Below, piece after piece: positions 4,980 through 19,709 of a stretch of DNA of 64,000 nucleotides. Position numbers and translations under genes: made by a program. The DNA is from Glycocaulis alkaliphilus (GTDB lineage: Bacteria > Pseudomonadota > Alphaproteobacteria > Caulobacterales > Maricaulaceae), in NCBI RefSeq assembly GCF_004000605.1, contig NZ_CP018911.1, positions 2,833,001 to 2,897,000 of the forward strand, read 5' to 3'. The notes beneath the pieces were generated by a model. The model was given only the letters and a program-made list of their open reading frames with translations, had not been told where the DNA came from and did not search any database. Position 1 is the stretch's first letter, and each line of letters starts with the position of its first letter.

Positions 4980-5647
4980 CGGTCCTCCTCGGGCGCAGAC
5001 GCGCCGTCACCGACATAGAAGCGCGTCACCACACCGCCGGTAAAGCGCAAACGCCGGCCTTCCTCATGCAACTCGAAACCATATGCCTGCACGCCGCCCC
5101 ATGGCGCGCGCCCCTGCACCGGCTCTTCGCCGTATACCACACCTTCGTCCAAGTCTATCGACGCGCCTTCAGTGCGGAACTCATAGCCCGACCGGGTGGT
5201 GAAACGGACCGTGTCGGACATGCGCAAGGTGCGCGTGGCATCATCATAGACACCCATGCGCGACAACACCTCGGATGCATCGGGCTGACGCGACCCGCCA
5301 AACAGCAGGGCATAGTCGATGCGCGGACTTTCCAGATCAGTCAGATTGCCCAGCCCCACCATCCGGCGCACAGCCGAATCCGCCGTGACCACATAGGCGC
5401 GCCCGTGCGCGTCGCGGCCAGTAAAACGCGGGTTTACGATCCGCTCCCCGTCGCCCAGCATCGCCGGCCGGGCCGCCGGTTCGTGGTTGCCGGCCAGGAA
5501 TGACTGCACCAGCAGATTGGCCACAAGCGCGCCGATCAGGACGATCAGGACAATGCGTGCATTGCGCACGACTCGCGCCCGCAGACGGGCGGCAGCAACC
5601 GCCCGGCTTGCCGATGGCTCGGCGGCTGCGAATGTCAGCGTGTTCAT
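4976..5647 (-). CDS. lptC: LPS export inner-membrane protein LptC
   Basis: The 223-residue protein has a basic cytoplasmic N-terminus, one membrane anchor at about residues 32-52 (VLIVLIGALVANLLVQSFLAG) and a periplasmic LptC-type beta-jellyroll, ending in a strand close to LRFTGGVVTRFYVGDG. LptC takes LPS from LptFG and passes it to LptA. It overlaps lptA by 4 nt and lies 93 bp downstream of rnd. It belongs to the lptC-lptA-lptB set. Confidence 0.92.
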   Translation of the reverse strand: MNTLTFAAAEPSASRAVAAARLRARVVRNARIVLIVLIGALVANLLVQSFLAGNHEPAARPAMLGDGERIVNPRFTGRDAHGRAYVVTADSAVRRMVGLGNLTDLESPRIDYALLFGGSRQPDASEVLSRMGVYDDATRTLRMSDTVRFTTRSGYEFRTEGASIDLDEGVVYGEEPVQGRAPWGGVQAYGFELHEEGRRLRFTGGVVTRFYVGDGASAPEEDR

Positions 5648-5740
5648 CCCGAATGCCTGAAAAACTTTGCCCGCAAGGCCTTTGTGGACCCTGGCCGCGG
5701 CCTTTTCAAGGCAGGCGCGCCGTCTGCTGGCAATGGCGCC

Positions 5741-6355
5741 CTAGCTGTGAGCGAAAATGTCGGCGTCCGCCCAGCCGGCCAGATCCAGCGCCGCCCGGGT
5801 TGGCAGGAAGCTGAAGCACGCCTTTGCCATCTCCATCCGCCCCTCGCGGATCAGCATGGCTTCCAGCCCGTCGCGGATCTGATGCAGATAGAGAACGTCA
5901 TCAGCGGCGTATTTAAGCTGCGCTTCGCTGATTTCGCCTGCGCCCCAGTCAGAGCTTTGCTGCTGTTTGGAAAGCTCCACCCCCGCGATCTCGCGTGCCA
6001 CGTCCTTCAGACCGTGCCGGTCGGTATAGGTCCGCGCCAGCTTGGAAGCGATCTTGGTGCAGAATACAGGCCGCAGCGTAACACCCAGATCACGCGCAAT
6101 CATCGCCACATCAAAGCGCGCAAAATGGAGAATTTTCTCTACGCCTTCATCGGCCAGCAGCGCTTTCAGATTCGGGCAGTCATAGGAGGAACGGTCCAGC
6201 TGGACGATATGTGCGTCCCCGTCGCCTGCCGACAACTGGACCAGGCATAGCGGATCGCGCACCAGCGACAGGCCAAGCGTCTCGGTATCGATTGCAACGC
6301 GTTTTCCAAGATCCAGCCCGGCGGGCAGGTCGGCCTTGTGGAAATGGATGGTCAT
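5741..6355 (-). CDS. rnd: Ribonuclease D, short form
   Basis: This 204-residue protein is only the 3'-5' exonuclease domain, without the HRDC domains of E. coli RNase D. The DEDDy residues are visible: Asp23 and Glu25 in IDTETLGL, Asp82 in HFARFD, and Tyr149/Asp153 in KYAADDVLYL. It should trim tRNA and other RNA 3' ends. The frame extends to 6415, but MTIHFHKADLP (start 6355) matches short alphaproteobacterial homologues. It is upstream of lptC on the same strand. Confidence 0.92.
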   Translation of the reverse strand: MTIHFHKADLPAGLDLGKRVAIDTETLGLSLVRDPLCLVQLSAGDGDAHIVQLDRSSYDCPNLKALLADEGVEKILHFARFDVAMIARDLGVTLRPVFCTKIASKLARTYTDRHGLKDVAREIAGVELSKQQQSSDWGAGEISEAQLKYAADDVLYLHQIRDGLEAMLIREGRMEMAKACFSFLPTRAALDLAGWADADIFAHS

Positions 6356-6504
6356 GGACGTGCAACCCCTTCTCGGCTCAGCGCGTGTAGCCCTTCCTAT
6401 GGGCCGCGCACGCACCCGGCGTCAATCAACGGCCTGCTGCGGGGGAACCAATTTGACACCGGCAGGTTGAATCAGCGCTACGCCGCCACTAGCCTGGGGT
6501 CATC

Positions 6505-7200
6505 ATGTCCATATCCGCTACATTCGCCGCCGCGTTTGGCGCGGCAAGCATGCAGGGCGATCCTGCGTTCGCTGGCTCGGGAGCCTTCACCGCATCCACA
6601 GATGCTGACCGGCGCGCCTTTGTCGGCTTGCGAGCGGGAACACTGGGAGTGGGCGTCGAGGGCGGCTATCGCATCAACGATTACCTGCAGGTACGCACAC
6701 ATGCAGCCGGGCTCGTTTATTCCGACGACCAGACCGTGGCCGACATCGCCAGCGACTTCTCGCTTCGGCTGGCGAGCGTGGGTGTCGGGGTGGATGTTTT
6801 CCCCTTTCGGCGCGTCTTCTTTCTGACGGCAGGTGCCCGCTACAACTTCAACAGGGCCGTCTATAACGCCCAGCCCGCCAGCGACTACCAGATCGGTGAC
6901 AACATCTATCCGGCTGCTGAAGTTGGCCTGCTGTCCGGCGAAGCCCGGTTTGCGCCCAATGCCTGGTTCGCCGGCGCCGGCGTGGCCGGGCGGCCATGGA
7001 ATGGACCGATTGAGGTATCGCTGGAGGCTGGCGTGTACCGGCAAGGCGCCCCCAGCATCAGCTATGACGTAACCGGCCTTCTGGCGAACGACCCTGCGTT
7101 TCTCGCCGATCTTGAATTGCAGGTGGAGCGCGCACAGCGCGATCTGGACAAGTACGATTCCTTTCCTTTGATCGCGTTCAATCTGCGCTATCGCTTCTGA
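6505..7200 (+). CDS. Predicted outer-membrane beta-barrel protein
   Basis: The 231-residue protein has alternating amphipathic strands (VGLRAGTLGVGVEGGYRI, FFLTAGARYNFNRAVY, VSLEAGVYRQGA) and ends in an aromatic residue (NLRYRF), as outer-membrane barrels usually do. The N-terminus is a weak signal peptide ending near DPAFA. A segment near residues 190-215 (LADLELQVERAQRDLDKYD) is charged and probably a loop. The exact family is not recognised. The gene stands alone, divergent from rnd, with TGGGGTC upstream of the start. Confidence 0.65.
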   Translation: MSISATFAAAFGAASMQGDPAFAGSGAFTASTDADRRAFVGLRAGTLGVGVEGGYRINDYLQVRTHAAGLVYSDDQTVADIASDFSLRLASVGVGVDVFPFRRVFFLTAGARYNFNRAVYNAQPASDYQIGDNIYPAAEVGLLSGEARFAPNAWFAGAGVAGRPWNGPIEVSLEAGVYRQGAPSISYDVTGLLANDPAFLADLELQVERAQRDLDKYDSFPLIAFNLRYRF

Positions 7201-7353
7201 TTTTTCCGTCAGCGCCCGGAACGGTGCCTGCCCTTGCAGATCTGCCAGGGCGCCTTGCGCACGGACTGCCACGATTTCGCAATAATCAGCAGCTAGATAT
7301 GGTTATCCCGACATAACCGACCTGCCACCAAGAGCCATAAAGGCCCTTTCCGC

Positions 7354-7743
7354 ATGCCTCTCGACCAAAAGACGCCCGATGTGGAGCCAATCCGCATCGA
7401 GACCGATATGGACGGAATTCTCACACTGCGCCTGCGGGGCGAATTGACCGGCGCAGTACTGCGCGAAGCGGCCGCACGCCTTGTTGCTGCCGGCCAAGGC
7501 GCACGGGTGAGTAGCGTACTGTTCGAGACGTCAGACACCAGCATCGCCTATGAAATCGCCGATTTGGTAAGCGCGGTAGAGCTTATCATGGACGAGCTGT
7601 CGCCGCGCCGCTGCGCCCATGTTTCCCATGGCGAGCGCACACGGCCCTACATGGTCATGGAAAGCACCGCGCGCGCCTTTGCCGTGAAGCTGCAGCCCTT
7701 TGCGTGCGAGGATGAAGCCCGCGCCTGGCTTTTGCAGCGCTAG
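7354..7743 (+). CDS. STAS/SpoIIAA-like small protein
   Basis: The 129-residue soluble protein has an opening strand pattern (IETDMDGILTLRLRGELTGAVLR) that resembles SpoIIAA/STAS-like folds, in which a strand is followed by a helix. No catalytic motif is seen. Such proteins are often regulators or protein-binding modules; that is inference from fold resemblance only. It is followed by a convergent 82-residue gene. The ribosome-binding site is weak (AAAGG, 10 bp before the start). Confidence 0.55.
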   Translation: MPLDQKTPDVEPIRIETDMDGILTLRLRGELTGAVLREAAARLVAAGQGARVSSVLFETSDTSIAYEIADLVSAVELIMDELSPRRCAHVSHGERTRPYMVMESTARAFAVKLQPFACEDEARAWLLQR

Positions 7744-10510: not shown

Positions 10511-10597
<87 letters not shown>

Positions 10598-14479: not shown

Positions 14480-15013
14480 ATGAGCCTTGAGAGCCTCAAA
14501 GAGCACATCCCCGATTACGCCAAGGACATCCGGCTGAACCTGTCCTCGCTGGCGCGCGAGACCGGACTGGACGACCAGAAGAAATATGGCTGCTTCCTCG
14601 CCTCGGCCTGGGCCACGGGCAATGCGGCGCTGATCCGCGCCATTGCCGGTGAAGTCGACGGCAAGCTTTCACCCGAGGCCGTGAACGCCGCCAAGGCCGC
14701 CGCCGCCGTGATGGGCATGAATAATGTCTATTACCGCTTCGTGCATCTGGCCTCGGCCAAGGACTACAAGACCCTGCCCGCGCGCCTGCGCATGAACGTC
14801 ATCGCCAATCCGGGCGTGGACAAGGCCGATTTCGAGCTGTGGTCGCTCGCCGTCTCCGCCATTAATGGCTGCGGCATGTGCATCGACGCGCATGAGGCCG
14901 AGCTGAAAAAGCATGGCATCAGTGCCGACCAGATCCAGACCGCCGTGCGCATCGCCTCGGTGGTCAATGCCGCCGCCAGCGTGATCGAGGCCGAAACCGC
15001 CGCTGCGGCGTAA
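14480..15013 (+). CDS. ahpD: Alkyl hydroperoxidase AhpD
   Basis: The 177-residue helical protein carries the AhpD catalytic motif CGMCIDAH, with Cys131, Cys134 and His138. In the known system AhpD has weak peroxidase activity and recycles AhpC using lipoyl groups from the ketoacid dehydrogenase complexes. Glu/His residues upstream of the CXXC are also conserved. Length is normal. It follows ahpC by 97 bp and is terminated by the hairpin into which the transposon has inserted. Confidence 0.95.
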
Positions 15014-15039
15014 TTTCGGCGCCCCAGGCACCTGGAAAG

Positions 15040-15071
15040 CCCCGCTGCGGAGCGTCCGCGGCGGGGTTTTT
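15040..15071 (+). terminator. Intrinsic terminator after ahpD, adjoining the transposon
   Basis: The stem CCCCGCTGCGG / CCGCGGCGGGG (one G-T pair) with a 5 nt loop is followed by TTTTTGTTT. The transposon's left target duplication (TTTTGTTT, 15068-15075) is the T-tract of this terminator, so the insertion sits exactly at the transcript end. Confidence 0.85.
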
Positions 15072-15075
15072 GTTT
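15068..15075. repeat. Left 8 bp target-site duplication of the transposon
   Basis: The sequence TTTTGTTT directly precedes the left terminal inverted repeat and is identical to 17934-17941. Confidence 0.9.
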
Positions 15076-15098
15076 GGCGATTATACCGTTTGCAAACC
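15076..15098. repeat. Left terminal inverted repeat of the transposon
   Basis: This 23 bp end starts GGCGATTATA and finishes TTTGCAAACC. It matches the reverse complement of 17911-17933 at 19 of 23 positions; the four differences are contiguous, at positions 11-14. Confidence 0.9.
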
Positions 15099-15157
15099 TG
15101 ACTCCACGCAGAAGCCGACTCACCGTAAGGTGGTGACGGTTATGGATGGAGGCGGGA

Positions 15158-15493
15158 ATGGCCAAATATGGCACGATAGAGTTTGCTGGAGCATCGGGCG
15201 CAAGTTACATGTTCACAGCCTATTCGCGCGACACTAACTTTAACGCGGTCGGAGCGGTTTATTTTGTGACGAAGCGCAGCCCGAACGGTCCGGGCCGATT
15301 TAGTCATGCAGAAATTTACGTAGGAGAAACAGGCGACCTGTCAGATCGCCCGCTTAACCACCACCGCAAAGACTGCTTTGATCGCAACGGCGCAAATTGC
15401 GTCTGCGTGCTTACTGAGTCGGATCGAAACCGGCGGCTGTATATTGAGGCTGACATTCGGCAGAAACACGAGCCGCCGTGCAATCGTCAGTAA
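15158..15493 (+). CDS. GIY-YIG-like passenger protein
   Basis: The 111-residue protein shows a GIY-YIG-type pattern: AVYFV (33-37), IYVGETGDLSDR (53-64) with the conserved Gly and Arg, and RLYIEADI (93-100) carrying a candidate catalytic Glu97. The spacing between the two Tyr motifs is longer than usual, so it is a divergent member and nuclease activity is inference. ATG 15158 has GGAGGCGGG upstream; the ATG at 15146 would overlap that site. It is the first gene inside the transposon's left end and less GC-rich than the core genome. Confidence 0.6.
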   Translation: MAKYGTIEFAGASGASYMFTAYSRDTNFNAVGAVYFVTKRSPNGPGRFSHAEIYVGETGDLSDRPLNHHRKDCFDRNGANCVCVLTESDRNRRLYIEADIRQKHEPPCNRQ

Positions 15494-15635
15494 GCTCTTC
15501 TGCCAGCGCTCCTGACTCGATAAACCTTATTGCATCACTCGCTAGCGCCAAAGTTTCGCGCAGAGGGCGGTTTTCTTGAGCGCACACTATGCGCCACACT
15601 TCGAAACGACGATCGGGTGACACTGCCACCTCCAT
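15411..15635 (-). CDS. Possible 74-residue passenger protein
   Basis: The sequence looks protein-like, especially RRFEVWRIVCAQENRPLRETLALASDAIRFIESG, which reads as a helical small protein. It overlaps the 3' end of the GIY-YIG-like gene by 83 bp in the opposite direction. There is no good ribosome-binding site. An 18 bp palindrome lies 12 bp upstream. No family is recognised. It may be real, or a by-chance frame in a gap that otherwise has no gene. Confidence 0.4.
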   Translation of the reverse strand: MEVAVSPDRRFEVWRIVCAQENRPLRETLALASDAIRFIESGALAEELTDDCTAARVSAECQPQYTAAGFDPTQ

Positions 15636-15647
15636 TAAAGACAGAGA

Positions 15648-15665
15648 GTGGTATTATAATACCAC
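15648..15665. promoter_or_regulatory. Perfect 18 bp palindrome inside the transposon
   Basis: The sequence GTGGTATTATAATACCAC is a perfect palindrome without a loop, which suits a dimeric repressor site better than a terminator. It lies between two leftward genes, 12 bp upstream of the 74-residue gene and 21 bp downstream of the 51-residue gene. Confidence 0.55.
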
Positions 15666-15686
15666 ACGGTAGCCCGTTACCGCAAG

Positions 15687-15842
15687 CTAGTCGTCACTGT
15701 CCGGCGTCTCGCGCTCATCCCGCTTGCTTTGCGGTTGCTTCGCCACGCGCTTTAGCTTCTCATCAAAGGCCGCTTCATCCTCATCGCATTCCAGTTCGCG
15801 GGCGAGGGCTTTGAACTTGTCGGATTGCGTTTTTTCTCTCAT
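15687..15842 (-). CDS. 51-residue charged passenger protein divergent from DUF3800
   Basis: The product begins MREKTQSDKFKALARELE, continues with CDEDEAAFDEKLKRVAKQ and ends in a Lys/Asp/Glu-rich tail. The LARELECDEDEAAFDEKLKR pattern resembles small proteins that recur in alphaproteobacterial accessory regions, usually of unknown function. The longer frame to 15977 runs inside the DUF3800 gene and is not used. Its start lies only 9 bp from the DUF3800 start on the other strand, so the two genes must share a promoter region lying within each other's coding sequence, or be leaderless. Confidence 0.6.
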   Translation of the reverse strand: MREKTQSDKFKALARELECDEDEAAFDEKLKRVAKQPQSKRDERETPDSDD

Positions 15843-15851
15843 TACAATCTC

Positions 15852-16730
15852 ATGGACTATGATTACGTTTTGTATGTTGACGAGGCAGGTGACCCCGGAC
15901 TGCGAACAGTTCGGCCCATAGACACCAATGGCGCAAGCGAGTGGATGGTGCTTTCGGGAGTGCTCGTGGCCAAACAAAACGAAGCAGACATTCTTCAGCG
16001 CATTTCCACATTACCATCAATGATAGGTGCGCGAAACCAGCATGACTTTCATTTCAAAAACCTTGCTCCACATCGAAAACTGGCTGTGTGCTCGCAGCTT
16101 GCTACGTGGCCGGTCCGTTGTTTCGCGGTGTGCTCAAACAAGCGCAATATGCGTGGTATGCACGATGCAAAGCCCCATGCGGAGATAGTTTCTGTCAAGA
16201 GCTGGTTTTACGCTTGGCTCTTTCGCCTACTCGTTGAGCGGGTGTCGAACTGGGTTGCGGTAAGGAGCGCCCGCGAGCTTGGCCGCCCAGGTATCTTGAA
16301 GATCGAAATAAGTCAGCGTGGCGGGGTGCGCTATGTCGGAATGCGCGCCTATATGGAATGGCTCAAACAAACGTTTGATGCCAATGTCGGCGCGCTATCC
16401 CAGCACGGGTCGGTGGACTTTCGGGTGATTTCGATCCCCCTGATCCAAGACTTCAGCCACCGATCTCGCTTAGGGCTACGCATGGCGGACTGGACCGCCA
16501 GCGCGTTTTTCAAGGCAATAGATATACATCAGACAGGGGCATGCGATGCCTCGTTTGCAAAGGCGTTAGGGCCTCGGATTGCCCGCGCATCAGGGCAATC
16601 CTTGCCCGCCGGTTACGGGGTCAAGCTCATGCCCGGATGGAACTCTGGACATCTCAAAAATGTGGATCCGATTCAGTTGGATATATTCCGCTACTACGGC
16701 TATCCGCGGGAATGGCGAAGCAACTGGTGA
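15852..16730 (+). CDS. DUF3800 domain passenger protein
   Basis: The 292-residue protein opens with the DUF3800 signature YVLYVDEAGDPG. It has further conserved blocks DFHFKNL, ILKIEISQRGG and a C-terminal RLGLRMADWTASAFFKAID. The family is widespread in mobile and accessory DNA and is thought to have an RNase H-like fold with the acidic residues at a metal site; no reaction has been assigned. ATG 15852 is preferred over the upstream codon at 15825 because the family begins just before YVDE. It converges on the transposase gene. Confidence 0.85.
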   Translation: MDYDYVLYVDEAGDPGLRTVRPIDTNGASEWMVLSGVLVAKQNEADILQRISTLPSMIGARNQHDFHFKNLAPHRKLAVCSQLATWPVRCFAVCSNKRNMRGMHDAKPHAEIVSVKSWFYAWLFRLLVERVSNWVAVRSARELGRPGILKIEISQRGGVRYVGMRAYMEWLKQTFDANVGALSQHGSVDFRVISIPLIQDFSHRSRLGLRMADWTASAFFKAIDIHQTGACDASFAKALGPRIARASGQSLPAGYGVKLMPGWNSGHLKNVDPIQLDIFRYYGYPREWRSNW

Positions 16731-16923
16731 GGCCCGGCTTCGTTGGCCCCAGAAGCGGCTCCTAGCCCAACATTCAGCGTCAGGCCTCGCTCCCGGTGAC
16801 GGGTCGCCAAAGCAACCCATCGCGAAGTTACTCCGGCAACCTCACCAACTACGATTCTAGCATTTTGGACGATGAAAAGCAATTTGATTCAATGGCTTGC
16901 TAAGCTATTGATCGGAATCGTCT

Positions 16924-17865
16924 TTATGCAATGCCGTCAGCCCGCCGATACGTCAGCCGCTTACCCACGATACCCGTGAGGGCGGCATCCGTCCGTTCCT
17001 TATCGTCTACACCGAGCTTTTCGCGGTGGTTATAGCGGAAGTCATATTCCGCCAGATAGCGGTGCAGGTGGTGTTTTCCGCAATGCTGATACACGCCCTT
17101 CATGCCGCGTTTGAAGACGCTGAAATAGCCCTCAATCGTGTTCGTGTGGACCTCGCCGCGACCGTATTCGCCCTTGTTGTGGCGAACGAAGTCATGCTCC
17201 GCGAAGTGACGGCCTAGCGTGTGATACTGGCCAGCCTCATCGGTAAAGACGCGCGCTTCCTTCGCCACGTTCGCTTGAACGAGCGGGATCAACGTTGCGG
17301 CTTTCAGGTCATCAACCACCATGGAGCGGGCCTGTCCGGTTTCACGGTCGATCAGGGACAGAACCTTGAACTTGTGGTGATAGCCACGGCCCTTTTTCTC
17401 GCCGCGCGGCTTCATGGCCTTGTCATGGCCGATGAAAGTCTCATCGACCTCGACAGTGCCGCCATTGCCGCCAAACGGTGCCAGATCGCCAGAGCGCATG
17501 GCTTCGCGGATACGGTGCGCCATGAACCATGCGGTCTTGTAGGTGACCTCTAGCGTGCGCTCCAGTTGCTTGCTGGAAACGCCCTTCTTGCTGGAGCACA
17601 TCAGGTAGACCGCTTGCAGGAACTTATTGAGCGGCACACGGCCATGCTCAAACACCGTGCCAACCTTGACGGTGAACTGCTTGCGGCAAGCGCCACACTT
17701 TTTCAGGCCGATGCGCACGCGCTTATCGACGTTCGGCTTGATCGCGTAGACCTTATGCGTCTCGCCACAGTGCGGGCAGACAGGACCATTCGGCCAGATC
17801 ACGCTTTCCAGCTTCTCGAAAGCAGCGGCTTCATCGTGGAAATACGGGGCGCTCAGGACAGACAT
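16924..17865 (-). CDS. IS1595-family (ISXO2-like) transposase
   Basis: The 313-residue protein has an N-terminal zinc ribbon (CPHC at 30-33, CGAC at 57-60). The DDE-type catalytic domain shows Asp141 in VEVDETFIG, Asp209 in VFTDEAGQY, and the HTNTIEGYFSVFKRG block carrying Asn242/Glu245, followed by an HLHRYLAEYDFRYNHR tail. These are the hallmarks of the ISXO2-like group in IS1595. It is full length with no frameshift, so the element may be active. It starts 45 bp inside the right inverted repeat, with GGAGAAGAG upstream. Confidence 0.95.
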   Translation of the reverse strand: MSVLSAPYFHDEAAAFEKLESVIWPNGPVCPHCGETHKVYAIKPNVDKRVRIGLKKCGACRKQFTVKVGTVFEHGRVPLNKFLQAVYLMCSSKKGVSSKQLERTLEVTYKTAWFMAHRIREAMRSGDLAPFGGNGGTVEVDETFIGHDKAMKPRGEKKGRGYHHKFKVLSLIDRETGQARSMVVDDLKAATLIPLVQANVAKEARVFTDEAGQYHTLGRHFAEHDFVRHNKGEYGRGEVHTNTIEGYFSVFKRGMKGVYQHCGKHHLHRYLAEYDFRYNHREKLGVDDKERTDAALTGIVGKRLTYRRADGIA

Positions 17866-17910
17866 GGCTCTCTTCTCCGAATCTGCCTAGAAGCTACCTC
17901 ATTTCAGATG

Positions 17911-17933
17911 GGTTTGCAAGGTATATAATCGCC
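17911..17933. repeat. Right terminal inverted repeat of the transposon
   Basis: This 23 bp end starts GGTTTGCAAGG and finishes TATAATCGCC, pairing with 15076-15098. It contains TATAAT (17924-17929), a perfect -10-like hexamer pointing outward to the right. Confidence 0.9.
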
Positions 17934-17941
17934 TTTTGTTT
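17934..17941. repeat. Right 8 bp target-site duplication of the transposon
   Basis: The sequence TTTTGTTT is identical to 15068-15075 and directly follows the right inverted repeat. Confidence 0.9.
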
Positions 17942-17975
17942 GCCGGTTGCATTCTTGCGGATTACCGTCGCTGCT

Positions 17976-19250
17976 ATGAAGTGGGTCGGGCGGATTGTCC
18001 TCATTCTTTTCGCGCTGCTGGCGGGGTTTGTCGCCGTGTCGGCAGGGCTGGCCTATGTGGCCGGGCAATACTGGCGGGAGGCGGCGCTGGCCGAGCGGGT
18101 CGAGCGGCTGGACGCACGCTTCGAGGCCGCCGTCATGGCCCGGATCGAAGCCAGCGCGTTCGACGATGAGGATTGCCTCTGGATCGGCGACGCCCGCGAC
18201 ATCGCCGCTGGCCTTTATCTTATTGCCTCAGCTCGCCGGATTGAACTCACTCTGGCGGAGCGCGAAGCCTGCGGCGTGCGCCTTGACGCGGATGAACTAC
18301 GCAGGCGCCGCCTCCAGATCGAGCAACTCCCCTGGACCTTCGAATATATGCCGGTGCCGCTGGCCTTCCTTGAGGATACCGCCAAGGCAGCGGCGAGCCT
18401 TGTAACTGCCGATGCGGACGGGGTGCTGCGGTATCAATATGCGCAAAAGCGAGCCGGTCTTCTAAGTTCGACCAGCGTGTTCAGCGACGTTCCGTTCCAG
18501 CAGCTTGAGACACTTGTGGATGGCTTTTTATACGGAGCTGTTACCGCTCAGCAGATCGGGGTCATTTCCTACCGCAACCGTATGGAATCTTATGAAGCAC
18601 GGCGGCAACTGGCACTGGAGCACGCCTACGCCCCCAGCTCTCGCGTTCAGGACATGGCGTGGTTCGACCTTTACCGCTCCGCCTCGAGGATGAATGCCGA
18701 TGCCATTTGGCAATTACACCTGATGTCGGAGGGACGCTGGCCGGAGCAGCGAGACGGCGTCGCGCCTTTTGCCCTCGCCGAGGGCCCACTGCTGATTGAT
18801 TGGCCCTCCGATTGGCTCCGCTATGCCGTCGCCCGCGGCCACGCGGAGGCCACGCGCGCCTTTCTGGAAAATGGCTGGAACCGTCAGGGCGCGGACGGCA
18901 ATGGCGATGGCATTGTCTGGAGCGATCCTTTCTCCACGCCCTACTGGTGGGTGGTGCATGCGGTGCGGCTGGATAACCCCGCTTTCGCCGATGATCTGGA
19001 CATCGCTTTGGCGCATCTGGAGGGCCGAGGCTGCGCCGATCACGCCCGCGCCGTCGGCGAAGCGTGGCGCGGTGTACTGGCTGATTTCTGGAGCGATCAT
19101 ACGCCCGTCAACGCGCTGATCCGCGAGCGCCCTGACTGCACCGGGCCGCAAGACAGCGAACCGGCAGAGTTTGAGCACAGCGACACCCGTTTCGACGATC
19201 CGCTGTACGATCTGCCCGAGCTCATGATCGCGCTCGATCTGTCGCTGTGA
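17976..19250 (+). CDS. Hypothetical membrane-anchored protein, 424 residues
   Basis: One N-terminal membrane segment (about residues 3-27, VGRIVLILFALLAGFVAVSAG) is followed by a large soluble domain rich in Trp and acidic residues. No family is recognised. Segments such as DDEDCLWIGDARDIAAGLYLI and HGDGNGDGIVW-like acidic loops are seen, but there is no catalytic motif. ATG 17976 precedes the membrane segment; the TTG at 17940 would lie in the transposon's target duplication. The transposon ends 43 bp upstream, so the native promoter region has been displaced. Confidence 0.6.
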   Translation: MKWVGRIVLILFALLAGFVAVSAGLAYVAGQYWREAALAERVERLDARFEAAVMARIEASAFDDEDCLWIGDARDIAAGLYLIASARRIELTLAEREACGVRLDADELRRRRLQIEQLPWTFEYMPVPLAFLEDTAKAAASLVTADADGVLRYQYAQKRAGLLSSTSVFSDVPFQQLETLVDGFLYGAVTAQQIGVISYRNRMESYEARRQLALEHAYAPSSRVQDMAWFDLYRSASRMNADAIWQLHLMSEGRWPEQRDGVAPFALAEGPLLIDWPSDWLRYAVARGHAEATRAFLENGWNRQGADGNGDGIVWSDPFSTPYWWVVHAVRLDNPAFADDLDIALAHLEGRGCADHARAVGEAWRGVLADFWSDHTPVNALIRERPDCTGPQDSEPAEFEHSDTRFDDPLYDLPELMIALDLSL

Positions 19251-19388: not shown

Positions 19389-19709
19389 ATGGCTGATACG
19401 CTTCACCATATCGCGCAAAGCGCCACCGACCGCGACCGGCATGATGCCGGGCAGGCGGGCAGCGCATGGCGCTGGTTTTCGGCGCGCACCATGCGCCGGG
19501 CCTCGCGCTATCGCGACCTGACATGGCGCCATGTCGGCCGGCACATGATCTTTGCGCTGGCGATCGTTTTCGTCTCGCGCATCTGGGCGAGCGAGGCCCA
19601 TGGCGTACTGCTGCTGGTAATCGGGTCGATCTGGGCCATGCTGATGGCGCGCATCGCCTTCATCAAGGGCTTTGATGCCCTGACCCGCCGGCGCCAGGCC
19701 CGCTCCTGA
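19389..19709 (+). CDS. Small membrane protein with a 2TM-type domain
   Basis: The 106-residue protein has a charged N-terminal 50 residues and two hydrophobic helices (about residues 54-66 and 70-90: HMIFALAIVFVSRIW and GVLLLVIGSIWAMLMARIAF), ending in a basic tail. It resembles short 2TM-domain proteins of unknown role. The candidate promoter directly abuts the ATG, so translation may be leaderless. Confidence 0.6.
   Translation: MADTLHHIAQSATDRDRHDAGQAGSAWRWFSARTMRRASRYRDLTWRHVGRHMIFALAIVFVSRIWASEAHGVLLLVIGSIWAMLMARIAFIKGFDALTRRRQARS

Follow-up and report, generated by a model that had tools for sequence, protein, structure and literature searches.

An IS1595-family transposon with passenger genes at the ahpD terminator

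The window analysed here is a 64,000-nucleotide stretch of the Glycocaulis alkaliphilus genome (contig NZ_CP018911.1, positions 2,833,001 to 2,897,000), and positions 15076-17933 of it are a complete transposon of the IS1595 family that carries passenger genes. Starting from the end distal to the transposase, the element contains an open reading frame (ORF) for a putative GIY-YIG-like small nuclease, 111 amino acids (aa) long (15158..15493, + strand), a 51-aa ORF that we call orf-A (15687..15842, - strand), a gene for a DUF3800 protein (15852..16730, + strand) and the transposase gene (16924..17865, - strand). Terminal inverted repeats of 23 bp occupy 15076..15098 at the distal end and 17911..17933 on the transposase side and agree at 19/23 positions, and directly outside them lie two copies of the target duplication TTTTGTTT, at 15068..15075 and 17934..17941, which match at 8/8 positions. 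The chance expectation for such an inverted pair together with such a duplication in 4 kb is 2.6e-6. The GC content is 0.553 in the element and 0.633 in its flanks. A previous sequence-only reading of this DNA had proposed a complete IS1595-family transposon with these ends and duplications and a single transposase of IS1595 type, and all of this was confirmed. There is no doubt about the complete transposon, because an exact empty site exists in a congener and because GGCGATTATATACTTGACAAACCCA is the consensus common to both ends of 113 complete elements, the window's counted. The same recurrence answers the concern, raised in that reading, that the ends might be unmatched in other IS1595 elements.

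The empty site was looked for in close relatives. Matches to the flanks were found in 5 of the 6 genus genomes searched, the window's own genome included. In one congener (G011) the site is uninterrupted, with a single target copy, differing by one base, between the ahpD terminator and the gene that follows; the flanks are contiguous there and identical to those of the window at 927 of 1113 aligned columns. Two further genomes (G008 and G009) have kept ahpD and the terminator, followed by a different sequence that by eye resembles the window ORF at 19389, and in G010 the alignment is confined to ahpD. The simplest reading of these comparisons is that the element inserted in the lineage of the window after the split from G011, with precise loss of the element in G011 as a possible alternative. 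The host feature hit is the ahpD terminator (15040..15071, + strand), a CCCCGC...GCGGGG stem followed by a T-tract, and the duplication keeps this T-tract in place. Because the left copy of the duplication continues the T-tract, termination of ahpD was probably undisturbed by the insertion.

The transposase and a putative promoter in the terminal repeat

The transposase frame is intact and the protein matches the Pfam domains DDE_Tnp_IS1595 (PF12762, 1.8e-35) and, at its N-terminus, Zn_ribbon_IS1595 (PF12760, 1.8e-12), as well as the NCBIfam model for IS1595 (NF033547, 200.8 bits against a cut-off of 75). A putative transposase promoter was located at 17891..17919 (- strand); its -35-like hexamer, TTGCAA, falls within the terminal repeat, and its -10-like hexamer, TAGCTT, is a weak match. 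The window's own promoter match is weak, and the consensus of the related elements is clearer: TTGACA, at 5/6 positions or better, stands at end positions 14-19 in 93/113 transposase-side ends and is followed by a -10-like TAgaTT, with a -10 match score of 3.72 versus 2.65 for shuffled sequence. At the distal ends the -35 is weaker (61/113). The terminal repeat thus seems, from these patterns, to carry the -35 element of the transposase promoter.

Cargo of the window element

The sequence-only reading had listed four cargo proteins, which fared differently. The DUF3800 assignment holds, with a PF12686 score of 23.9 bits against a gathering cut-off of 21. The GIY-YIG-like assignment of the 111-aa ORF is supported by a profile built with 7 relatives, for which six UvrC GIY-YIG domain sequences top the Protein Data Bank (PDB) ranking (E 0.0085-0.16), and by a motif seen by eye, G-VY..Y-G-T..R..H..E..P-CN, but the ORF has no Pfam match. 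The 51-residue acidic protein, orf-A, is a real conserved gene, as judged from its sequence relatives, but looks like a gene of the element and not like cargo. The 74-residue protein was rejected: it has no match at E<0.1 in 16 other elements and is probably not a gene.

The DUF3800 family has an RNase H fold according to the part of PMC10910872 that treats it, and the model of the window protein (pLDDT 72, pTM 0.79) resembles RNase H in the same way. Its best 14 Foldseek matches in the PDB are all RNase HII, H2 or H3, the best at E 0.002 and with TM scores by query of 0.28-0.41; there was no PDB structure match at E<=0.001, and a sequence profile search of the PDB found no RNase H. By its model, the protein is probably RNase H-like. 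Unlike the loci with DUF3800-associated RNAs, the element seems to lack such an RNA, and this candidate was dropped: the Rfam DUF3800 RNA is absent among the matches up to E 10 in window positions 14900-18000. The six nearest DUF3800 relatives (L058, L059, L200-L203) have neither orf-A nor a transposase within the stretch examined, and the viral-contig search with the window protein gave no match. The pairing of DUF3800 with a GIY-YIG-like gene was not noticed in another element, although no search of all 113 with a GIY profile was made. The cargo of the window may act as a toxin or in defence.

Related elements, their cargo and their targets

Relatives were chosen by transposase similarity only, and 186 loci in three sets were scanned. 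The first set came from the family to which the window's genome belongs: of its 137 genomes searched, 40 had a transposase match at E<=1e-30; 21 loci were taken, making 22 with the window. The second held the top 80 of at least 562 genome-contig relatives, mostly from Alphaproteobacteria, and four plasmid loci (84 together), and the third the best 80 transposase loci in IMG/VR viral contigs (L255-L334). Complete elements were found at 17/22, 60/84 and 36/80 loci respectively, a total of 113/186, mostly in Alphaproteobacteria. Because 36 of the best 80 virus-derived transposase loci are complete, these transposons may reside in the DNA of phages or prophages. The duplications match at 8/8 in 111 of the 113 complete elements and at 7/8 in 2, and no pair of elements shares 500 bp or more at 95% identity.

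All complete elements carry DNA beyond the transposase. They span 1869-4324 bp (median 2604, n=113), and no bare insertion sequence (IS) of ~1.1 kb is among them; none is <1500 bp, although the scans would have accepted ends as little as 700-850 nt past the start of the transposase. A distal repeat was also present in 20 of the 73 incomplete loci, every one at 2.1 kb or more. These include 9 of the 24 incomplete loci of the second set (distal end-like repeat at 2.3-3.5 kb); for 13 of the 15 in that set without one, the sequence available past the start of the transposase is <2.5 kb. Of the remaining 49 incomplete loci, 11 have a distal repeat, at 2.1-4.7 kb; at 15 the available sequence is short, and at 23 there is no such repeat. 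Among ten more distant transposase loci, ends were found at two, at 2.36 and 2.33 kb.

The passengers vary widely. By profile searches over the 113 elements, DUF3800 genes are present in 24 and PIN toxins in 14. A Pfam scan (E<=0.01) of 115 proteins of at least 140 aa from the first 77 elements gave DUF3800 22 times, PIN 14, SocA_Panacea 4 and NYN 2, and single cases of GmrSD, D12 methyltransferase and IrrE-type proteins, while 89/183 cargo ORFs are singletons. Cargo differs even between elements whose transposases are 87-89% identical: L042 carries DUF3800 and L046 PIN (87%), and L131 carries DUF3800 where L087 has neither. An uncharacterised protein of ~245-315 aa (cluster 1) precedes the PIN gene in 11 elements (L043, L046, L085, L086, L092, L094, L098, L103, L122, L149 and L165) and is possibly a partner of the toxin.

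The duplications are 80% A+T (77 elements). Terminator-like target sites make up 13/77, against 104/1245 AT-matched flank positions, a weak enrichment that led us to reject strong terminator targeting, and the extended target motif is weak. Short palindromes surround the duplication in some elements, of the AGG-N8-CCT type in L042, L044, L050, L051, L052, L053, L057, L064 and L152 and of the GTCA-N8-TGAC type in L048, L049 and L141. Such targets could reflect a preference of part of the clade.

The small proteins orf-A, A' and orf-B

The protein encoded by orf-A was modelled as a helical hairpin (helices 6-16 and 23-34) with modest confidence (pLDDT 72, pTM 0.33), and its conservation makes it a probable element gene. 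Relatives were found in 58 of the first 77 elements, the window's own counted, and iterated profiles over all 113 elements raised the count to 84, of which 74 have orf-A itself and 10 a variant, A'; without exception the gene shares the strand of the transposase. Another 16 elements have a distinct small protein that ends in a TPPKP-like tail (orf-B), encoded in 15 of them on the strand opposite to the transposase. Differences at the three codon positions of orf-A are 0.26, 0.25 and 0.49 (80 pairs), and dN/dS was 0.13-0.64 in 11 chosen pairs; orf-A is under purifying selection.

The window's orf-A matches nothing in Pfam or NCBIfam at E<=1 and nothing convincingly in the PDB (best E 0.86), and in PHROGs it hits only phrog_11413, a family of unknown function (E 0.025, and 0.0056 for the orf-A of L152). 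We considered and rejected orf-A as a phage gene: it has no match in phage records, and 11/26 loci on viral contigs have the transposase beside it. By eye, a third small-protein type, RFERAVDVVAKSPPQHR-like, is seen in elements without orf-A or orf-B, at L294 2250-2453, L306 1374-1634, L317 1737-1910 and L319 1655-1831, all on the - strand.

Outside the window, orf-A mostly accompanies the transposase. A search of 385 genomes of the class found it in 16 genomes, at 18 places outside the window, and at 13/18 an IS1595 transposase lies on the same strand within ~3 kb, in the case of L187 in broken frames; at L184, L189, L193 and L198 no transposase was found, and at L191 orf-A was not recovered. 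At the 11 viral-contig loci mentioned above the transposase lies upstream in the same orientation, and 9 of the 26 are cut within 1 kb upstream. A search of 190 genomes for orf-B gave seven places, five of which lie downstream of an IS1595 transposase gene encoded on the other strand; the exceptions are L342 and L344. Among the 81 elements in which the start of orf-A or A' is usable, the small gene directly follows the transposase in 21, at a gap of -4 to +26 nt in 18 of these; it stands behind another long frame of the same strand in 42/81 and behind none in 18, 14 of these being DUF3800 elements.

Elsewhere, the window contains a tRNA gene at 10514-10597 (- strand).

Interpretation

We consider it probable that these elements form a passenger-carrying clade of the IS1595 family, with a constant part that includes orf-A as a likely accessory protein or regulator, and with exchangeable cargo. 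The transposase recognises GGCGATTATATACTTGACAAACC-type ends, and insertion occurs with 8 bp duplications at AT-rich sites, here the T-tract of the ahpD terminator. The constant part is made up of the ends, the transposase and usually orf-A or another small helical protein in its stead; the exchangeable part often consists of toxin-, nuclease- or defence-like genes, represented in the window by the RNase H-like DUF3800 protein and the GIY-YIG-like protein. Most likely orf-A would assist or regulate transposition, or the expression of the element, and would not be the partner of a single cargo gene, and the cargo would probably benefit the host or the element through toxicity or defence. The division into constant and exchangeable parts has statistical support, and the sequence comparisons support well both the clade-wide passenger habit and a role of orf-A as second core gene. 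Perhaps the whole clade is no longer a bare IS but a modular cargo platform, in which orf-A/A' (orf-B in a sister group) would be a core component for moving, targeting or regulating and toxin or defence modules would be swapped beside it; this wider proposal is tentative.

Alternatively, orf-A could counter the cargo as an antitoxin or immunity protein, which would make the elements addictive toxin-antitoxin transposons. This explanation would fit a cargo so rich in toxin-like genes, and it would fit the gene order. The start codons of orf-A and DUF3800 are head-to-head, at -2 to 19 nt, in 9/20 DUF3800 elements including the window (9 nt between them), and orf-A overlaps the stop codon of the PIN gene in 9/13 PIN elements, arrangements that would also suit a cargo partner. 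However, a single small family would then have to neutralise unrelated toxins, and its strand is fixed relative to the transposase in 84/84 cases. DUF3800 lies on the strand opposite orf-A in 20/20 elements; the gap is 86 nt in L131 and not computable in 7 others, and in L051, L146 and L161 orf-A is at the other side. In 21 elements orf-A follows directly behind the transposase, and the smallest element, L087 (1869 bp), keeps it 214 nt behind the transposase gene without DUF3800 or PIN. In Mantel tests, which take no account of host relatedness and for orf-A rest on ~32 aligned columns, the divergence of orf-A tracks that of the transposase (r=0.384, p=0.0002, n=74). No such relation holds for orf-A with DUF3800 (r=0.03, p=0.31, n=23) or with PIN (r=0.12, p=0.19, n=13), nor for DUF3800 with the transposase (r=-0.04, p=0.73, n=24). 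The lack of correlation led us to reject orf-A as a DUF3800-specific partner, and we regard the antitoxin explanation in general as unlikely.

The elements might instead be anti-phage defence shuttles, with DUF3800 and the GIY-YIG-like protein as defence nucleases, which would be compatible with a passenger-carrying clade. Relatives do carry defence genes: L126 (NZ_NSFV01000014.1, Mesorhizobium sp. WSM4311, 5479-7742) holds both PD-Lambda-5 genes (A and B, E 3.7e-164 and 4.3e-119) and orf-A in an IS1595-type passenger transposon, L106 has an RmrA-like gene (1.7e-15) and L143 a PD-Lambda-2_C-like gene (5.6e-20), and passages of PMC12669027 and PMC10910872 place a DUF3800 nuclease in some CRISPR loci. 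Yet the window's DUF3800 protein matches none of the PADLOC models, its GIY-YIG-like protein matches only weakly (PDC-S14, 7e-4), and most cargo is unassigned. We are doubtful of this explanation, somewhat less so than of the antitoxin. It is improbable that these are ordinary IS1595 transposons with randomly captured host genes and an incidental small ORF. Passenger-carrying elements of this family are already known (PMC11891212 and PMC3129680, in the parts dealing with them) and the many singletons show how diverse the cargo is, but orf-A, A' or orf-B is present in 100/113 elements, in a near-fixed orientation for each type, orf-A is under purifying selection, and the cargo contains many toxin-like domains.

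Several observations weigh against the accessory-gene interpretation that we favour, or narrow it. By profile, 13/113 elements have no orf-A, A' or orf-B, with look-alikes in several seen by eye only, and homology of orf-A and orf-B is unsupported (hhalign probability 12%). Transposase and PIN distances are correlated (r=0.34, p=0.015, n=14). Of 17 viral orf-A places with enough upstream sequence, 6 have no transposase in ~3.5 kb or more (L233, L234, L236, L240, L242 and L246), and at L233 orf-A is head-to-head with DUF3800 with no transposase in view; these places make our interpretation slightly weaker and the antitoxin slightly stronger. The 23 incomplete loci that lack a distal repeat altogether do have at least 2.5 kb of downstream sequence. 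The absence of bare elements is without a positive control, as the end scanner, when applied to six other IS1595-family loci, located no ends. No relative exceeds 76% transposase identity among the 137 family genomes and the top 80 of at least 562 contig relatives. As to mobility, for which the sequence-only reading had looked to further copies, the window's element is present as a single copy in a one-contig genome of 3.02 Mb. The missing second copy weakens the case that the element is currently active, not that it has transposed.

Insertion sequences with passengers are described as variants of plain elements, and here every complete member of the clade that was found has them. Should orf-A prove to be a transposition factor, this would contribute to an explanation of how an element with one transposase turned into a stable vehicle for toxin and defence genes, present chiefly in Alphaproteobacteria and also on contigs derived from viruses. 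Together with the ends, orf-A, A' and orf-B provide a sequence handle by which further elements of this kind, and novel toxin or defence genes, could be found.

Comparison with known systems

We found no publication on this small protein or on an IS1595 clade with obligatory passengers in titles and abstract openings, with subscription journals outside the scope. In line with the IS1595 family, the window's element combines a DDE domain and an N-terminal zinc ribbon with 8 bp duplications. The end consensus GGCGATTATATACTTGACAAACCCA of the complete elements fits GGnnATTAT, which we take to be the terminal consensus of the ISNwi1 subgroup. Elements of that subgroup are 1.0-1.2 kb in size, unlike those of the clade (1.87-4.32 kb). 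The accessory genes TnpB of IS66 and IstB of IS21 are examples from other IS families of a second gene kept with the transposase, and orf-A, at ~50 aa, may be likened to them by its arrangement. The description of the IS1595 family in PMC8101967, as far as its text on the family goes, has a single transposase gene between the ends, whereas the window's element and the 112 other complete elements, all of at least 1869 bp, represent the transporter IS (tIS) variant. That concept, with the IS1595-family element ISNha5 as example, goes back to Siguier, Gagnevin and Chandler 2009, as cited in passages of PMC11891212 and PMC3129680. As in the tIS outlined in those passages, the elements described here have an IS1595 transposase, 8 bp duplications and passengers between the ends; unlike them, not one of the 113 complete elements is without additional DNA, and most share a recurrent family of small proteins.

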